Shown here piece by piece: positions 49,508-62,594 of a DNA stretch of 64,000 bases. The stretch's first letter is position 1. Each line of letters opens with the position of its first letter. This stretch comes from Prochlorococcus marinus str. MIT 9301 (GTDB lineage Bacteria; Cyanobacteriota; Cyanobacteriia; PCC-6307; Cyanobiaceae), in the NCBI RefSeq assembly GCF_000015965.1, contig NC_009091.1:992001-1056000 (forward strand), in the 5' to 3' direction. The notes under the pieces were generated by a model. The model had not been told where the DNA came from, made no database searches, and worked only from the letters and a program-made list of their open reading frames with translations. A program made the translations under genes and the position numbers.

Positions 49508-49545
49508 AAAAAAAAAAAAAAAGACCTGCTATATGCAGGTCTTTT
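49508..49545 (-). terminator. Terminator of the first tandem porin
   Basis: Inverted repeat AGACCTGC (49522-49529) / GCAGGTCT (49535-49542) with a 14-base A-run on the plus strand, that is, a T-run in the transcript. The same stem ends both other porin genes in the window. Confidence 0.9.
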
Positions 49546-50559
49546 AATGTGTGTAAGATTTCTAAATTAAATTTAGATTTAGAAGCTGAATGATGTTTTA
49601 ACCATAATTCCAGTTTCATCCAAATCTCCTGTTTCACCAGGATCAGCTTCCACAGTATAAATAAGTGGAGTGATTGTCATTCCATCATTTACTGCGTATG
49701 AATAATAAATTTCATACATCATCCTATCAGGTATTCCAGTAGCGGTTTCAACCATTCTTCCGGCAGTACCTGCAGCAGCACCTAATTCACCTGGTCCAAC
49801 TTCACCGTTGATTCCCACGAAGTAAGCTTCTGTTTCGTCAACAGTTGCAGCTGCATTATCAAGATCACCGATTTCATAACCAGCACTGATGTTTAAACCG
49901 TTATCAAATGAATAATAACCATTAAATGCCATGTATGTATCGTTGTCGTTACCATCTTCGATGTTTGCGTAAGTGATAGAAGCACCGTAGCTATCGCTAA
50001 TGTATGCAGCGTTTAACGCATAAGAATCGTCAGTTTCATCAGTAGCTATACCAGTTTCACTGAATTGAGCACCAAATGCTGTTGTGAATCCGTTATCGAA
50101 GTCATATGCAGCACCGATAGATAATCCACCACCTGTGATTCCAGCAGTTACGTTACCGCAATCATCAAGTGTGTTAGATGGTCCGCCATATACACAAGCT
50201 GTAGTAAATAGCATACTTCCATCTGTATTGTCACCAACGAAAGCAGTTGCGCCACCTAGAGGGAAAGTATATGAAATACCATCAACAGTTAGGATGTCGC
50301 TAGCAGTTATTTCATTAGCTGCGTCAGTAGTAGCAGGGCCATTAAGGTCGAATTCACCTAGTGAGCCGTTACCATTACCAGCGTCAAGAGAGATATCAAG
50401 TGAATCTTCCCCAGTGAAACTTGTGTTCAAGTCAATCTGGAAACCGTAAGTAGCCTGAAGATCTTCATCTCCATCAGTAATTGTAGTTGTTGTACCTCTT
50501 CCATCAACAGCACCGATCGCGAAATCTACTGAGAAGGAAGCAGTTGTTGTTTCTGAGAA
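49521..50559. repeat. 1,039-bp near-identical direct repeat, copy 1
   Basis: This stretch covers the terminator stem, 3' UTR and the whole barrel-coding part of the first porin. By eye it equals 50874-51912 except for one base in the terminator loop (T at 49532, C at 50885). The offset is 1,353 bp. Identity stops abruptly after the codons for FSETTTASF. Confidence 0.95.
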
Positions 50560-50778
50560 GCCTCCGTCATAACTATCTGTATCAGCTAGTCCTTCTCCAC
50601 CTGCTAGAAGCAGACTTTTATTTGGTTGATCACTATCAAAAGAGTTAGCTAATTCAATGTTTTCTACGTCAGAGTAGTTTGCAATTTCATTGAGGTTAAT
50701 CTCAGTAGCATTTGCAGCAATAGGTGAAATTAATCCTAAAGCAGCTGGAGCTACCAACAAACGTTGGAAAAGCTTCAT
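49579..50778 (-). CDS. som: Outer-membrane porin, tandem copy 1 (no SLH domain, short N-terminus)
   Basis: A 399-residue porin of the cyanobacterial OprB/Som family. The signal peptide is MKLFQRLLVAPAALGLISPIAANA. About 60 residues follow, including LLLAGGEGLADTDSYDGG, and then the beta barrel from FSETTTASFSVDFAIGAV to the terminal GIMVKTSFSF, whose final Phe is typical of outer-membrane proteins. The SLH domain that usually anchors these porins to peptidoglycan, present in the paralogue at 61245, is absent. The barrel is identical to the one in the next gene. The GC content is clearly above that of the neighbours, as for other abundant proteins. Confidence 0.92.
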   Translation of the reverse strand: MKLFQRLLVAPAALGLISPIAANATEINLNEIANYSDVENIELANSFDSDQPNKSLLLAGGEGLADTDSYDGGFSETTTASFSVDFAIGAVDGRGTTTTITDGDEDLQATYGFQIDLNTSFTGEDSLDISLDAGNGNGSLGEFDLNGPATTDAANEITASDILTVDGISYTFPLGGATAFVGDNTDGSMLFTTACVYGGPSNTLDDCGNVTAGITGGGLSIGAAYDFDNGFTTAFGAQFSETGIATDETDDSYALNAAYISDSYGASITYANIEDGNDNDTYMAFNGYYSFDNGLNISAGYEIGDLDNAAATVDETEAYFVGINGEVGPGELGAAAGTAGRMVETATGIPDRMMYEIYYSYAVNDGMTITPLIYTVEADPGETGDLDETGIMVKTSFSF

Positions 50779-50784
50779 AAAGTG

Positions 50785-50793
50785 TCCTCACAC
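50785..50793 (-). promoter_or_regulatory. Yfr1-complementary leader element, porin copy 1
   Basis: On the mRNA this reads GTGTGAGGA, 7-15 bases before the ATG, covering the ribosome-binding site. It is complementary to nine bases of the invariant ACTCCTCACAC loop of the sRNA Yfr1, which is known to repress two som porins in Prochlorococcus MED4. Yfr1 itself is not in this window. Confidence 0.65.
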
Positions 50794-50867
50794 AATTTTG
50801 TAATTTTAAGATAATTTAAATAATGATTAATGACAAGCCACGGTAGACAAAAAAAAAGTTGTCTAAA

Positions 50868-50898
50868 TAAAAAAAGACCTGCTACATGCAGGTCTTTT
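50868..50898 (-). terminator. Terminator of the second tandem porin
   Basis: AGACCTGC (50875-50882) / GCAGGTCT (50888-50895) with an A-run on the plus strand side, matching the terminator of copy 1 except for one loop base. Confidence 0.88.
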
Positions 50899-51912
50899 AA
50901 TGTGTGTAAGATTTCTAAATTAAATTTAGATTTAGAAGCTGAATGATGTTTTAACCATAATTCCAGTTTCATCCAAATCTCCTGTTTCACCAGGATCAGC
51001 TTCCACAGTATAAATAAGTGGAGTGATTGTCATTCCATCATTTACTGCGTATGAATAATAAATTTCATACATCATCCTATCAGGTATTCCAGTAGCGGTT
51101 TCAACCATTCTTCCGGCAGTACCTGCAGCAGCACCTAATTCACCTGGTCCAACTTCACCGTTGATTCCCACGAAGTAAGCTTCTGTTTCGTCAACAGTTG
51201 CAGCTGCATTATCAAGATCACCGATTTCATAACCAGCACTGATGTTTAAACCGTTATCAAATGAATAATAACCATTAAATGCCATGTATGTATCGTTGTC
51301 GTTACCATCTTCGATGTTTGCGTAAGTGATAGAAGCACCGTAGCTATCGCTAATGTATGCAGCGTTTAACGCATAAGAATCGTCAGTTTCATCAGTAGCT
51401 ATACCAGTTTCACTGAATTGAGCACCAAATGCTGTTGTGAATCCGTTATCGAAGTCATATGCAGCACCGATAGATAATCCACCACCTGTGATTCCAGCAG
51501 TTACGTTACCGCAATCATCAAGTGTGTTAGATGGTCCGCCATATACACAAGCTGTAGTAAATAGCATACTTCCATCTGTATTGTCACCAACGAAAGCAGT
51601 TGCGCCACCTAGAGGGAAAGTATATGAAATACCATCAACAGTTAGGATGTCGCTAGCAGTTATTTCATTAGCTGCGTCAGTAGTAGCAGGGCCATTAAGG
51701 TCGAATTCACCTAGTGAGCCGTTACCATTACCAGCGTCAAGAGAGATATCAAGTGAATCTTCCCCAGTGAAACTTGTGTTCAAGTCAATCTGGAAACCGT
51801 AAGTAGCCTGAAGATCTTCATCTCCATCAGTAATTGTAGTTGTTGTACCTCTTCCATCAACAGCACCGATCGCGAAATCTACTGAGAAGGAAGCAGTTGT
51901 TGTTTCTGAGAA
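50874..51912. repeat. 1,039-bp near-identical direct repeat, copy 2
   Basis: Second copy of the repeat at 49521-50559, covering the barrel of the second porin and its 3' UTR. Sequences flanking the repeat (signal peptides, N-terminal segments, 5' UTRs) are clearly diverged. Confidence 0.95.
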
Positions 51913-52089
51913 ACTACCAGCTTCAAAGTTGTTTAGTCTTGCTTCTAAACCGTCTACACGGCTATTTGTAATAGCAAGTTGTTCTGCAGGTGTGAAGTCA
52001 CTGATTGTAACTTCATTTGCTGTAGCTGCTACAGGAGCTAAAAGTCCTAATGTTGCAGGAGCTACAAGCAAGCTTTTAAAAAGCTTCAT
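50932..52089 (-). CDS. som: Outer-membrane porin, tandem copy 2 (no SLH domain, keeps coiled-coil)
   Basis: A 385-residue Som-family porin from the ATG at 52089. The frame is open to 52152, but the extra 21 residues precede a clear signal peptide (MKLFKSLLVAPATLGLLAPVAATA) and the ribosome-binding GAGG. After the signal comes a short heptad segment ITNSRVDGLEARLNNFEAGS, as in the SLH porin at 61245, then a barrel identical to that of copy 1. The SLH domain itself is missing. It lies upstream of copy 1 with its own terminator between them, so each is a separate unit. Confidence 0.92.
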   Translation of the reverse strand: MKLFKSLLVAPATLGLLAPVAATANEVTISDFTPAEQLAITNSRVDGLEARLNNFEAGSFSETTTASFSVDFAIGAVDGRGTTTTITDGDEDLQATYGFQIDLNTSFTGEDSLDISLDAGNGNGSLGEFDLNGPATTDAANEITASDILTVDGISYTFPLGGATAFVGDNTDGSMLFTTACVYGGPSNTLDDCGNVTAGITGGGLSIGAAYDFDNGFTTAFGAQFSETGIATDETDDSYALNAAYISDSYGASITYANIEDGNDNDTYMAFNGYYSFDNGLNISAGYEIGDLDNAAATVDETEAYFVGINGEVGPGELGAAAGTAGRMVETATGIPDRMMYEIYYSYAVNDGMTITPLIYTVEADPGETGDLDETGIMVKTSFSF

Positions 52090-52094
52090 AAATT

Positions 52095-52103
52095 TCCTCA
52101 CAC
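52095..52103 (-). promoter_or_regulatory. Yfr1-complementary leader element, porin copy 2
   Basis: The mRNA reads GTGTGAGGA directly upstream of the ATG at 52089, identical to the element before copy 1 although the surrounding leaders differ. Conservation in a diverged leader supports a function. Confidence 0.65.
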
Positions 52104-52862: not shown

Positions 52863-53423
52863 ATGAAATATGGAGATAGATGTAGAGTTATAGAACTCAA
52901 GGGAGATTTCCTAAGAAAAATTGATAATACAACTTCAAATATGGATTTACAAATAGAAAAAAGTTTAGTAAATGAAGGGGATCCTAACATCAGAATTTCT
53001 AAGCAAGCTTGGATAAAAGAAGCTTCTTTTTGTAAATTATTTTTTGATATCGGTCAAAAAGTAAACGAACTTTGTAAATGGAATTTTGATATTAAAGGTA
53101 TAGAACCTATCCAATATGGAATATATAGTGACGGAGGAAAATATGATTGGCATGTAGACCAAGGCGCAAAAATGTTTCTTAAAGGAGGTTCGGTAAGAAA
53201 AATCAGCATGACTTTATTCATTAATAATCCTGATGAGTATGAAGGAGGCGAATTTGATCTGGAATTATTCCCCCCAGAGAAAGAACCTAGATATGAAACT
53301 TTTAAATTGAAAAAAGGTTCTGCAATCTTTTTTCAGTCTGATGTTTGGCATAGAGTTAGACCTGTTAGTTCGGGAGTAAGGAAATCATTAGTAGCTTGGT
53401 ACTCTGGACCTCCTTTCAGATAA
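52863..53423 (+). CDS. 2-oxoglutarate/Fe(II)-dependent oxygenase (prolyl hydroxylase-like)
   Basis: A 186-residue protein of the PKHD/P4Hc family. The iron ligands are visible: HVD in YDWHVDQGAKM near residue 97 and the distal His in SDVWHRVRPV near residue 162, with the 2-oxoglutarate-binding Arg in SGVRKSLVAWYSG near residue 176. GGEFDLELF is the usual strand between them. Such enzymes are common in Prochlorococcus and in cyanophages; the substrate is unknown. It lies just before the tRNA-Pro region. Confidence 0.88.
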   Translation: MKYGDRCRVIELKGDFLRKIDNTTSNMDLQIEKSLVNEGDPNIRISKQAWIKEASFCKLFFDIGQKVNELCKWNFDIKGIEPIQYGIYSDGGKYDWHVDQGAKMFLKGGSVRKISMTLFINNPDEYEGGEFDLELFPPEKEPRYETFKLKKGSAIFFQSDVWHRVRPVSSGVRKSLVAWYSGPPFR

Positions 53424-53587
53424 AGTTATTGAATTTAAAAAATTATATTTCTATTGAATGAGAAGAAAGTTTTTATGAAAAAGATTAACAAATAAAGAAT
53501 ATACATTTTAGAAGTCATATTCAATAACTATTTTTAGCAAGAGTGATTTTAAAGCACCATATTTATTCACGAAAATCAGTTTAAAAA

Positions 53588-53609
53588 TTAGTGAGAGATT
53601 AGTGAGAGA
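53588..53609. repeat. Tandem 11-bp repeat TTAGTGAGAGA x2
   Basis: Two exact head-to-tail copies, about 90 bases before tRNA-Pro. Read on the other strand (TCTCTCACTAA) they are loosely similar to the TTCCCTCAAAA repeats on the far side of the element, so they may be recombinase-binding sites; that is speculative. Confidence 0.6.
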
Positions 53610-53699
53610 AAGCATATTTATGCATAAATAATATTTTTTACAAAAAATTTTGCTATTTACTCTTTTATAGATGTCTGTTATGAACTAAGATCTTATGAG

Positions 53700-53773
53700 C
53701 GGGGCGTGGCGCAGCTTGGTAGCGCGGGTGCTTTGGGAGCACTAGGTCGCAGGTTCGAATCCTGTCGCCCCGA
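53700..53773 (+). tRNA. trnP: tRNA-Pro (TGG), integration target
   Basis: A 74-nt cloverleaf: acceptor CGGGGCG pairs with CGCCCCG, discriminator A, anticodon loop TTTGGGA with anticodon TGG, T loop TTCGAAT. The last 46 bases (53728-53773) are repeated exactly at 55273-55318. This marks the gene as the attachment site of an integrated element that restored the tRNA on insertion. Confidence 0.97.
53728..53773 (+). repeat. Attachment core attL (46 bp, within tRNA-Pro)
   Basis: From GTGCTTTGGGAGCAC through the T arm to the discriminator, identical to 55273-55318. It spans the anticodon arm to the tRNA 3' end, the usual crossover region for tyrosine recombinases. Confidence 0.9.
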
Positions 53774-53795
53774 CTCTTAAAAACCAAGTCATACT

Positions 53796-53820
53796 AGCGA
53801 GTCTCCCAACTCGCTTTTTT
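53796..53820 (+). terminator. Terminator after tRNA-Pro
   Basis: AGCGAGT (53796-53802) pairs exactly with ACTCGCT (53809-53815) around a 6-base loop and is followed by a T-run. It lies 23 bases past the tRNA end, inside the element. Confidence 0.88.
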
Positions 53821-53844
53821 ATTATTTGTTGTCTCACATTAAGA

Positions 53845-53868
53845 AAATGTAGCTAAAGGGGTAGCTAG
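53845..53868. repeat. Left arm-type tandem 12-mers
   Basis: AAATGTAGCTAA then AGGGGTAGCTAG, head to tail. The second unit is identical to the first unit of the right array at 55125. The array starts 71 bases inside the attL core. Spacing and position resemble integrase arm-binding sites. Confidence 0.7.
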
Positions 53869-53961
53869 GATACAGTTGTTGCGGTCGTCACTTACTTATC
53901 TAGTGCCTTTTATTGACAATTCCATCAATTAGGTTGTTCCCCAAAAATTTTAGAACACTTA

Positions 53962-54594
53962 TTAATCAATAAGTGCGACCCATGAAAAGGCTGCTCCAAT
54001 ACCGATTAAAATTCCCGAAACCAAATTTTTATTCTTTAAAATTTTTCCAATATGCTCTGATAAGTATAGGACTATTAAGAGCAAAGATCCTTGCCCTATA
54101 AATATTCCTAAAAAGTAACTTAATAGAGGACTTTGCTCAGCACCAACAATTGCACCTCCTATCAAGTAACCATGCAAAGAGATCATGGGTAAAAGTAATG
54201 AGCTAGGTAAATAGCCCAAAATTATCAAACTTTCTAAAACTAAGCTTAAAGATACTAATGCTTCTGCGTAGGGAATCATAAATTCTGGCAATGACAAAAT
54301 TTGCGCAATAGCACTTCCAATTAAACCAAAACCTAATAAAGGTAATATCCATTTTTTTGGGAATCTCAATCCAATAAGACTTATTGCCAAAATAAAAAGG
54401 AGATGGTCTGGACCTAATAAGGGATGACCAATACCACTGATAAATCCCTGCCAGGAAGTTAATGTGGAACTCTCACCCATACCAAATGGATGATGAGCAA
54501 ATACTGGATTATAGATACTAATAAAAAACAAATATACAGGGAAGATTATTAAAGAGACTTTTAAGTTCTTATGAAAAAAATTTTTAGAATTCAT
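53962..54594 (-). CDS. hupE: HupE/UreJ family metal permease
   Basis: A 210-residue membrane protein from the ATG at 54594. It has a signal-like first helix, then FAHHPFGMGESS near residue 33 (the His-rich HupE opening HP-x-G). About six further helices follow with the family motifs GIGHPLLGPDHLLFILAI near residue 53 and LHGYLIGGAIVG near residue 142. HupE/UreJ proteins carry Ni or Co for hydrogenase and urease, but in organisms without these enzymes the metal is uncertain. The frame is open 26 codons further, but that part overlaps the Cys-rich gene upstream. It is 13 bases after that gene and likely cotranscribed. Confidence 0.85.
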   Translation of the reverse strand: MNSKNFFHKNLKVSLIIFPVYLFFISIYNPVFAHHPFGMGESSTLTSWQGFISGIGHPLLGPDHLLFILAISLIGLRFPKKWILPLLGFGLIGSAIAQILSLPEFMIPYAEALVSLSLVLESLIILGYLPSSLLLPMISLHGYLIGGAIVGAEQSPLLSYFLGIFIGQGSLLLIVLYLSEHIGKILKNKNLVSGILIGIGAAFSWVALID

Positions 54595-54607
54595 TTTTCT
54601 ATTTAAA

Positions 54608-54745
54608 TTAATGATCTTTGCATGGTGAACATTCTTCACAATCTGTACATTCGCAAGGACAAACACAACCACAACCTGGACAAACTTCTTTCTCGTTTAA
54701 AATCAAAGTATCTGTTACTAAATGTTTTGTAAAAGTAATAACCAT
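54608..54745 (-). CDS. Cysteine-rich metallothionein-like protein (45 aa)
   Basis: Not a classic SmtA by pattern, but a strong metal-binding candidate. Residues 1-20 are ordinary (MVITFTKHLVTDTLILNEKE). Residues 21-42 read VCPGCGCVC, PCECTDCEE and CSPC in order, nine Cys in 21 positions (residues 22, 25, 27, 29, 31, 33, 36, 39, 42), and the protein ends KDH. Such density is typical of metallothioneins that bind Zn, Cu or Cd. It is followed after 13 bases by hupE and preceded by two Fur/Zur-type palindromes. Marine Synechococcus has a Zur-activated metallothionein gene (bmtA), which makes this arrangement meaningful; orthology is not claimed. Confidence 0.75.
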   Translation of the reverse strand: MVITFTKHLVTDTLILNEKEVCPGCGCVCPCECTDCEECSPCKDH

Positions 54746-61244: not shown

Positions 61245-62594
61245 ATGAAACTTTTTCAAAAATTAATTGCTGCTCCTGCAATCATTTCACTTGTTTCAGG
61301 ATTTGCAGTAAATGCTGCTGAGATCAATACATCTGATCTTAGTGATTATTCTAGTACTAACAATTTAGTATCTTTAGACAACTTTAAATCAGAAACTTTA
61401 GTCCCTGGAGATTGGGCTTACGATTCATTAAAGGATCTTACAAATAGTTCAAAATTCAATGGAAACTCAGTTACTCGTTTAGAAGCTGCCGCTGAATTAA
61501 ACAACTTAATTGCAGGCAGTGAAGGCTTAATGAACGGAGCTGCGATTGATAGACTTAGTGATGAGCTTGGTTCTGAGTTGGCAATTATGAAAGGAAGAGT
61601 GGATGGCCTCGAATCTCGTGTAAATACAATCGAAGCTGGAAGTTTTTCTGAGACATCTACTATTTCATTCAAAGCTCGGATGGCAATCGGTGCTGTTGAT
61701 GGTAAAGGTGTAACAGCCACAGTTACTGATGGTGACGAAGCTGTTAATTTCCAATACACTTTTGATTCTGCAATAAAAACTAGTTTTACTGGTGATGATT
61801 CATTAACAGTAAAAATTGATTCTGGTAATGGAACAAGTGGTAATCCAGTCGATGAATTCGACCTTAACAATACAGACGACTTTCTTAAAGTCGACGGTGT
61901 TGCATACAAATTTCCTTTGGGAGATAACTTGACTGCTCTCGTTTCTGACGGGTATGACGGTAGTAAAATATTCACAACAGCATGTGCTTATGGTGGTCCA
62001 TCCAACACTCTTGATGATTGTGGTAATGTAAACGCAAATATCGATAATGCTGGTGCTTCTGCAATGGCTGAATATGATTTCGGTAATGGCTTTACTGCTG
62101 CTGTAGGTTATGCAGGTAATGAAGAAGGTCTTATGACTACAGCTAAAAATGACGCTTACGGTGCTAACTTAGCTTATATTGCTGATAACTACGGCGTTTC
62201 TTTAACTTACGGAATGCAAGAGGATGGTGCTAGTAACGAAACATATACAGCATTAAACGGTTTCTATTCATTTGATAACGGTTTAAACATCAGTGCTGGT
62301 TATGAAGTCGGAGATCTCGATGTTGCTGACGCAAATGTGGACGAAACATTAGCGTACTTCGTCGGAATTAACGGTGATGTAGGTCCAGGTGAACTTGGTG
62401 CTGCTGTAGGTACTAATGGATCTATGACTGAATCTGCTGGTTCTATAACTGAAGAGATGATGTATGAAGTATATTATGACTACCCATTAAATGATGGTAT
62501 GACTATTACTCCTCTTGTTTTCGTCAAGGAGTCATCAACAGCTGGCACTCCAGATCAAACTGGTGTAATGGTTAAAACAACATTTAAATTCTAA
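61245..62594 (+). CDS. som: SLH-domain outer-membrane porin, phosphate cluster
   Basis: A 449-residue Som/OprB-family porin. The start is ATG at 61245 behind TTTGAGGAAC; a TTG at 61236 is in frame but unlikely. It has a signal peptide (MKLFQKLIAAPAIISLVSGFAVNA) and an SLH domain at about residues 46-95 (VPGDWAYDSLKDLTNSSKF, VTRLEAAAELNNLIAG). A coiled-coil follows (MKGRVDGLESRVNTIEAGS), then a barrel ending in Phe. Its barrel and 3' UTR are related to those of the tandem porins. In Prochlorococcus a porin next to phoR and pstS is induced by phosphate limitation; the Pho-like boxes upstream agree. Confidence 0.94.
   Translation: MKLFQKLIAAPAIISLVSGFAVNAAEINTSDLSDYSSTNNLVSLDNFKSETLVPGDWAYDSLKDLTNSSKFNGNSVTRLEAAAELNNLIAGSEGLMNGAAIDRLSDELGSELAIMKGRVDGLESRVNTIEAGSFSETSTISFKARMAIGAVDGKGVTATVTDGDEAVNFQYTFDSAIKTSFTGDDSLTVKIDSGNGTSGNPVDEFDLNNTDDFLKVDGVAYKFPLGDNLTALVSDGYDGSKIFTTACAYGGPSNTLDDCGNVNANIDNAGASAMAEYDFGNGFTAAVGYAGNEEGLMTTAKNDAYGANLAYIADNYGVSLTYGMQEDGASNETYTALNGFYSFDNGLNISAGYEVGDLDVADANVDETLAYFVGINGDVGPGELGAAVGTNGSMTESAGSITEEMMYEVYYDYPLNDGMTITPLVFVKESSTAGTPDQTGVMVKTTFKF

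Follow-up and report, generated by a model that had tools for sequence, protein, structure and literature searches.

Segmental concerted evolution of duplicated outer-membrane protein genes has been described for babA/babB and homA/homB of Helicobacter pylori. According to the part of that report available to us, the 5′ part of these genes (in bab also the middle part) resembles the orthologue between strains and the 3′ part resembles the paralogue within the strain (PMC3960876). In Brucella, the neighbouring porin genes omp2a and omp2b undergo gene conversion and reach up to 100% identity in some species; the accessible text describes the two genes as lying in opposite directions and being 79–100% identical, with conversion of segments and with only omp2b shown to be expressed (PMC7050475). 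PMM1119 and PMM1121 of MED4 are homologous som porins ascribed to gene duplication, and both are reported targets of the sRNA Yfr1 (PMC6778093, PMC3142192). These two papers deal with regulation and target prediction, conversion is not mentioned in the portions available, and our comparison with the MED4 pair is one by description.

The Prochlorococcus porin pair studied here has the same marks of segmental concerted evolution as the Helicobacter genes, namely a segment that groups within the strain, a segment that groups by paralogue, and mosaic pairs. The Helicobacter genes, however, encode adhesins at separate loci and their chimeras change binding (PMC3960876), whereas here the genes are neighbouring porins and the homogenised block comprises the entire predicted barrel and the terminator, near-completely in 39 of 49 loci. 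Segmental concerted evolution is thus already known from Helicobacter and conversion from Brucella, and the Prochlorococcus porin pair adds a further case. No report of porin conversion in Prochlorococcus was present among the matches listed in a literature search over titles and abstract starts, with subscription papers mostly outside its scope.

The pair lies in the window, the whole 64,000-base stretch that was analysed (G000:C1:992001-1056000), which belongs to a single-contig genome of 1,641,879 bases (1.64 Mb). The two genes are arranged head to tail, both on the minus strand:

50932..52089, minus strand: upstream porin gene (U), 385 aa, with a signal peptide, a short N-terminal segment SRVDGLEARLNNFEAGS and a 16-strand barrel
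49579..50778, minus strand: downstream porin gene (D), 399 aa, with a signal peptide, a distinct N-terminus LLLAGGEGLADTDSYDGG and the barrel of U
51913..52089, minus strand: class-U N-terminal segment, unhomogenised
50560..50778, minus strand: class-D N-terminal segment, unhomogenised
50869..51912, minus strand: homogenised block copy 1 (barrel, 3′-UTR and terminator), in U
49516..50559, minus strand: homogenised block copy 2 (barrel, 3′-UTR and terminator), in D
50872..50898, minus strand: terminator-like hairpin of U, within the block
49519..49545, minus strand: terminator-like hairpin of D, within the block

The two copies of the block, each of 1,044 bp and offset by 1,353 bp, are identical at 1,043 positions, and the sole mismatch (49532/50885) falls in the loop of the terminator hairpin. 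A preliminary description of this DNA had reported tandem porins identical bar one base over 1,039 bp (49521-50559), which proved correct over a slightly longer block. On the minus strand, its first base is that of the Phe codon in the FSETTT motif (residue 60 of U and 74 of D), and from there the block extends across the stop codon and the 3′-UTR to past the hairpin. Divergence is immediate outside it, and gaps are needed to align U and D on the 5′ side. Judged from the sequence, identity over about 1 kb, synonymous sites and 3′-UTR included, would be far above chance; because these sites are also identical, protein-level selection alone is ruled out as an explanation. By eye, the N-terminal segment of U looks coiled-coil-like, and D appears to have no such segment.

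For comparison we used 77 loci from the best 80 of 94 relatives, which are almost all Prochlorococcus with one uncultured Synechococcaceae. Because the search patterns were built from the U protein of the window, this sample favours barrels resembling the window's. A second set comprised 151 genomes of the genus, 141 with a match, and 30 loci came from the matches listed. Most loci are single-cell or metagenome assemblies, and six from the window's own genome (L001-L006) were excluded. Of the 142 distinct ORFs of the family with a length of 250 aa or more, 128 were aligned (72 U, 52 D and 4 unclassified) and 14 were left out (7 judged to be other paralogues and 7 running off the contig). Exactly one U and one D were present in 49 loci, comprising 43 of the 77, five from the 151-genome set and the window itself; the trees were built on this set, and L113-L132, picked later as interesting cases, stand outside it, their pairs being compared singly. 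Among the flank genes, upstream gap was found at 90% coverage in 10 of the 49 loci, whose flanks are limited, and downstream trmFO and crtISO in 30 and 25. The 2OG-oxygenase-like and HupE-like genes upstream of U (52863-54672) are present, within the available flanks, in one of the 49 loci, the window itself, so that the upstream flanks are unusable as a clock; the upstream side of the pair looks variable and the trmFO side better conserved.

The N-terminal tree of the 98 genes from these loci separated 49 U from 49 D sequences with a support of 1.0 and placed no gene as sister to the neighbour from its own locus (0 of 49). The barrel tree, built from the same genes, joined the two neighbours as sisters in 42 of the 49 loci, and the barrel identity within a locus also exceeded that with every other locus in 42. 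The preliminary description had proposed that identity higher within than between strains over the barrel only would prove concerted evolution, and this is what is observed in those 42 loci. Barrels were at least 99.7% identical at the amino acid level within 39 of the 49 loci, with a within-pair pS of 0.0094 or less, compared with a between-strain barrel pS of 0.601 (median) and 0.113 (minimum). These 39 homogenised pairs were selected by an identity of >98.5%, and in 23 of them the coding sequence of the two barrels is the same. On average, the 39 diverge about 209 times as much from the nearest other strain as within the pair, a ratio of divergences in a selected set rather than a measured rate. 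The 3′-UTR behaves likewise (identity 0.90 within strains vs. 0.67–0.71 between strains). The N-terminal nucleotide identity of U and D within a locus averages 0.549 (49 loci); for leaders and N-termini alike, identity is about 55% when U is compared with D and 81–82% among U genes across strains, D genes being less conserved (leaders 0.59, N-termini 0.67).

Concerted evolution confined to the barrel was therefore shown in 42 of 49 Prochlorococcus loci, with a 5′ boundary near FSETTT and sharp-edged mosaics. We consider U and D to be old paralogues whose barrels, 3′-UTRs and terminators have repeatedly been homogenised by gene conversion between direct repeats, and we put the probability of this reading at about 0.9. 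A recent tandem duplication in each strain, with the N-termini then diverged or replaced, would fit copies that are adjacent and near-identical in many strains, and the two genomes with two U-type genes (G103, locus L033, and G106, locus L113) may indeed carry recent duplications. The N-terminal classes, however, recur across strains in the 49/49 split, which rules out this origin for the 49 loci. Distance between the copies also speaks against it, since 12 of the 14 pairs in the 49-locus set whose copies are about 2 kb apart are homogenised (L047 and L063 are not), and in G109 the barrels show 0 mismatches even though a TPR-sulfotransferase gene (L117:3476-5320, minus strand) lies between them. 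We give per-strain duplication practically no weight, and the earlier preference for conversion of the 3′ part over a simple recent duplication is borne out by the N-terminal split and the separated pairs. The loci with copies about 2 kb apart are L046, L047, L048, L052-L060, L063 and L075.

Across the 39 homogenised pairs, identity sets in no further than about three codons from FSETTT and extends 51–109 nt past the stop codon. An assembly artefact, with a single barrel assembled twice or two barrels merged, could be suspected at such a locus: in the 77 loci (from the best 80 of 94 relatives) eight ORFs of the family are cut by a contig end, as is the U gene in G042, G092, G141 and G144, the contig of MIT 9302 (L074) breaks within U, and U stands alone in 11 of the 77 loci although 4 kb or more of sequence follows it. 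Breaks inside the barrel are the expected product of an unresolved exact repeat, and small differences in a 1 kb repeat could be smoothed by short-read assemblers. An artefact would, however, hardly yield a common 5′ boundary throughout, nor mosaic pairs, and the identity is found in four of the five single-contig genomes that have both genes, with 0 (G000), 0 (G109), 2 (G041) and 6 (G015) coding differences in the barrel; G015 additionally has a diverged 3′-UTR, and in the fifth, G022, the D barrel is unrelated to that of U. A sixth single-contig genome, G050, has U alone within 6.5 kb, and among genomes in few contigs G107 (5 contigs) has a diverged pair and G039 (4) and G147 (3) have U alone. 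An artefact as the general explanation is thus very improbable, and the practical lesson is a warning that these porin genes may end up broken or merged in short-read assemblies.

The barrels were not near-identical in 10 of the 49 pairs. Three of these are partially identical (83–88% at the amino acid level; L020, L039 and L040), with identical runs exceeding those in all of 2,000 random placements of the mismatches. In L130, the mismatches are confined to the first 364 of 984 barrel columns. Conversion tracts with sharp edges are thus visible in the mosaic pairs L020, L039, L040 and L130. The other seven pairs, at 28–67% identity, have their closest barrel in another strain. In four of them (L095, L098, L047 and L063) the D barrels are related and belong to a single subtype, at 71–92% mutual identity, and in L045, L067 and L107 the D barrel is 28–34% identical to its U partner; the D barrels of L045 and L067 are akin (52% to each other and 50–65% to L076-L078). 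The 77 loci comprise 43 with both genes, 11 with U alone, 1 with D alone (L032), 8 uninformative and 14 other. U was called alone where at least 4 kb of downstream DNA was present, and deletion between the direct repeats and assembly collapse fit these loci equally well. The two findings named beforehand as speaking against conversion, a single copy and two distinct barrels, apply to a minority (11 of the 77 loci with U alone and 7 of the 49 pairs, respectively). In L032 (4650-7149) the second copy has a hybrid N-terminus, U then D, and 1,111 bp are identical, indicating that homogenisation there extended into the N-terminus. The first copy of L032, known from one single-cell assembly, has no intact start, and its reading frame is apparently broken near the start.

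Both leaders carry a short box complementary to a motif of the sRNAs Yfr1 and Yfr10:

52095..52103, minus strand: GTGTGAGGA box in the leader of U, complementary to the Yfr1/Yfr10 motif, 5 bases from the ATG
50785..50793, minus strand: GTGTGAGGA box in the leader of D, complementary to the Yfr1/Yfr10 motif, 6 bases from the ATG

The divergence of N-termini and leaders noted in the preliminary description is real, but both leaders retain GTGTGAGGA, an exact copy of which directly precedes the start codon in all 49 U leaders and in 47 of the 49 D ones (the exceptions are the D leaders of L053 and L068). The genome carries Yfr1 (RF01116) and two Yfr10 genes, and of eight genomic copies of GTGTGAGGA three are the complements of sites in these three sRNA genes, two are those in the U and D leaders and three lie elsewhere (G000:C1:453031, 1056729 and 1345024); by sequence match, the last three may mark other Yfr1/Yfr10 targets. 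Cyano-1 RNA (RF01701) genes adjoin both Yfr10 genes (L134:1303-1370 and L133:1283-1350). For MED4, repression via the 5′-UTR of PMM1121 was shown in an E. coli reporter, according to the accessible sections of the two papers (PMC6778093, PMC3142192). Taking the shared box together with the MED4 reports, U and D probably answer to the same sRNAs. What differs in their control may be the promoters and N-termini. A promoter scan returned 11 sites vs. 9.7 expected. The earlier suggestion that the arrangement keeps one channel under two leaders fits these observations, with the addition that both leaders bear the same sRNA box.

Exchange between lineages occurs at this locus, and barrel identity is unrelated to that of the flank. 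Over 435 strain pairs with a shared flank, the Spearman correlation with flank identity was 0.03 for the barrel, 0.66 for the U N-terminus and 0.09 for the D N-terminus. In 40 comparisons (14 strains) with flanks >92% identical and both strains homogenised, 24 barrels were <70% and 10 were >85% identical, showing that barrel alleles have been replaced between close lineages, in both copies. The barrel correlates more with the D N-terminus (0.52) than with the U N-terminus (0.33), and exchange of the barrel only between lineages was seen in none of 741 comparisons, looking for D N-termini >0.82 together with barrels <0.70 identical, so that a single import spanning the U barrel through D could explain the allele swaps. 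An imported block that was already homogenised can mimic a replacement in both copies. One might go further and propose that such imported pairs explain most of the pattern and that conversion is rare, and these correlations and the 24 divergent barrels would agree with it. Against this, the alleles of the window and L010 differ at a barrel pS of 0.269 with zero differences inside either pair; conversion is still needed because alleles diverge between strains while the copies stay identical within each. We therefore regard import as the principal cause as unlikely and retain repeated conversion as the preferred reading.

The preliminary description also raised the possibility of a hotspot for phage-driven barrel exchange, which found no support. 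A tblastn search of 50,697 phage records with the U protein of the window gave no match, and one scan of viral_contigs with the same query returned 2 stretches fitting the pattern, neither encoding a relative. The window's U protein was the only query in these searches, and divergent alleles in phages may escape it. Phage-borne barrels were rejected as the source, as no phage relative of the window's U was found.

AlphaFold2 predicts 16 strands for both U and D, in agreement with the general porin fold, at a mean pLDDT of 82 and 77, respectively, and mostly <50 in the N-termini. The first predicted strand, at residue 63 of U and 77 of D, would lie three residues beyond the start of the block. 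With the D model as the query, Foldseek returned OmpF, the Rh. blastica porin and OmpU (best E 2e-11). In sequence-based searches, the NCBIfam model por_somb (SOM iron-uptake porin, NF033921) scored U at 50.9 and D at 29.1 bits, below its cut-off of 100, neither protein matched OprB (PF04966) up to E = 1, and a sequence profile found no relative of solved structure at E 0.1. Other porin paralogues of the genome (61% and 37% identical) remain distinct from the pair, including the following one:

61245..62591, plus strand: third porin paralogue, unhomogenised, its barrel 61% identical to that of U and its N-terminus SLH-like by eye

This paralogue reaches 23.3 against OprB, whose gathering cut-off is 22.9. 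Having stayed different, it serves as a control from within the genome for the homogenisation of U and D. Its sequence is nevertheless identical to that of the pair over a stretch of 42 nt within the barrel and over 26 nt in the 3′-UTR, hinting at rare short conversion with the third paralogue.

The barrel evolves differently from its neighbours at the amino acid level. Between-strain medians of pS and pN are 0.601 and 0.352 for the barrel, 0.553 and 0.107 for the U N-terminus, 0.579 and 0.092 for trmFO, 0.534 and 0.074 for crtISO and 0.580 and 0.108 for gap, so that amino acid change in the barrel is three to five times that of its neighbours at a like, nearly saturated pS. The mean entropy is 1.82 in the odd-numbered loops, which we take to be the outer ones after the usual porin topology, compared with 0.85 in the even turns (P = 6e-6), 1.19 in the strands and 0.40 in the U N-terminus. 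That the presumed outer loops vary most points to surface-directed selection. It is possible, though we hold it as a tentative view, that homogenisation itself is selected, in that escape from a channel-binding phage or grazer needs both copies changed together; this is compatible with conversion, and the high barrel pN and the variable odd loops would be in line with it. Neutral conversion combined with fast-evolving loops predicts an identical picture, however, and no phage copy of the window's U was found. We know of no phage that uses this porin.

Under the preferred reading of repeated conversion, the two direct repeats of about 1 kb, being near-identical, would recombine by the cell's ordinary RecA-type homologous recombination. 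The tracts would end where homology is lost, on the N-terminal side (about 55% identity) and beyond the terminator. The distinct N-termini and leaders would be retained by selection, perhaps for different anchoring or assembly. The effect would be that two genes, each with its own start and both probably under repression by Yfr1-type sRNAs, yield one channel type, the outer surface of which would meanwhile change fast between lineages. A more speculative extension, which we rather doubt, is a ‘swap and copy’ switch of the surface, in which one slot acquires a new barrel by recombination with a different lineage and the second slot then receives it by conversion. If so, the whole channel surface would change while both modules of N-terminus and sRNA-regulated leader stay, and the boundary at the first β-strand and the terminator would make the barrel and terminator an exchange cassette.

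Prochlorococcus is a dominant phototroph of the ocean whose small genome encodes few regulators. In many of its lineages, the porin pair makes one channel type per lineage, and the lineages differ strongly. If the barrels alone are kept identical, intragenomic recombination far outpaces mutation at this locus, the separate N-termini and leaders probably have distinct uses worth retaining, and the outer loops of the barrel are a candidate target of phage or grazers.
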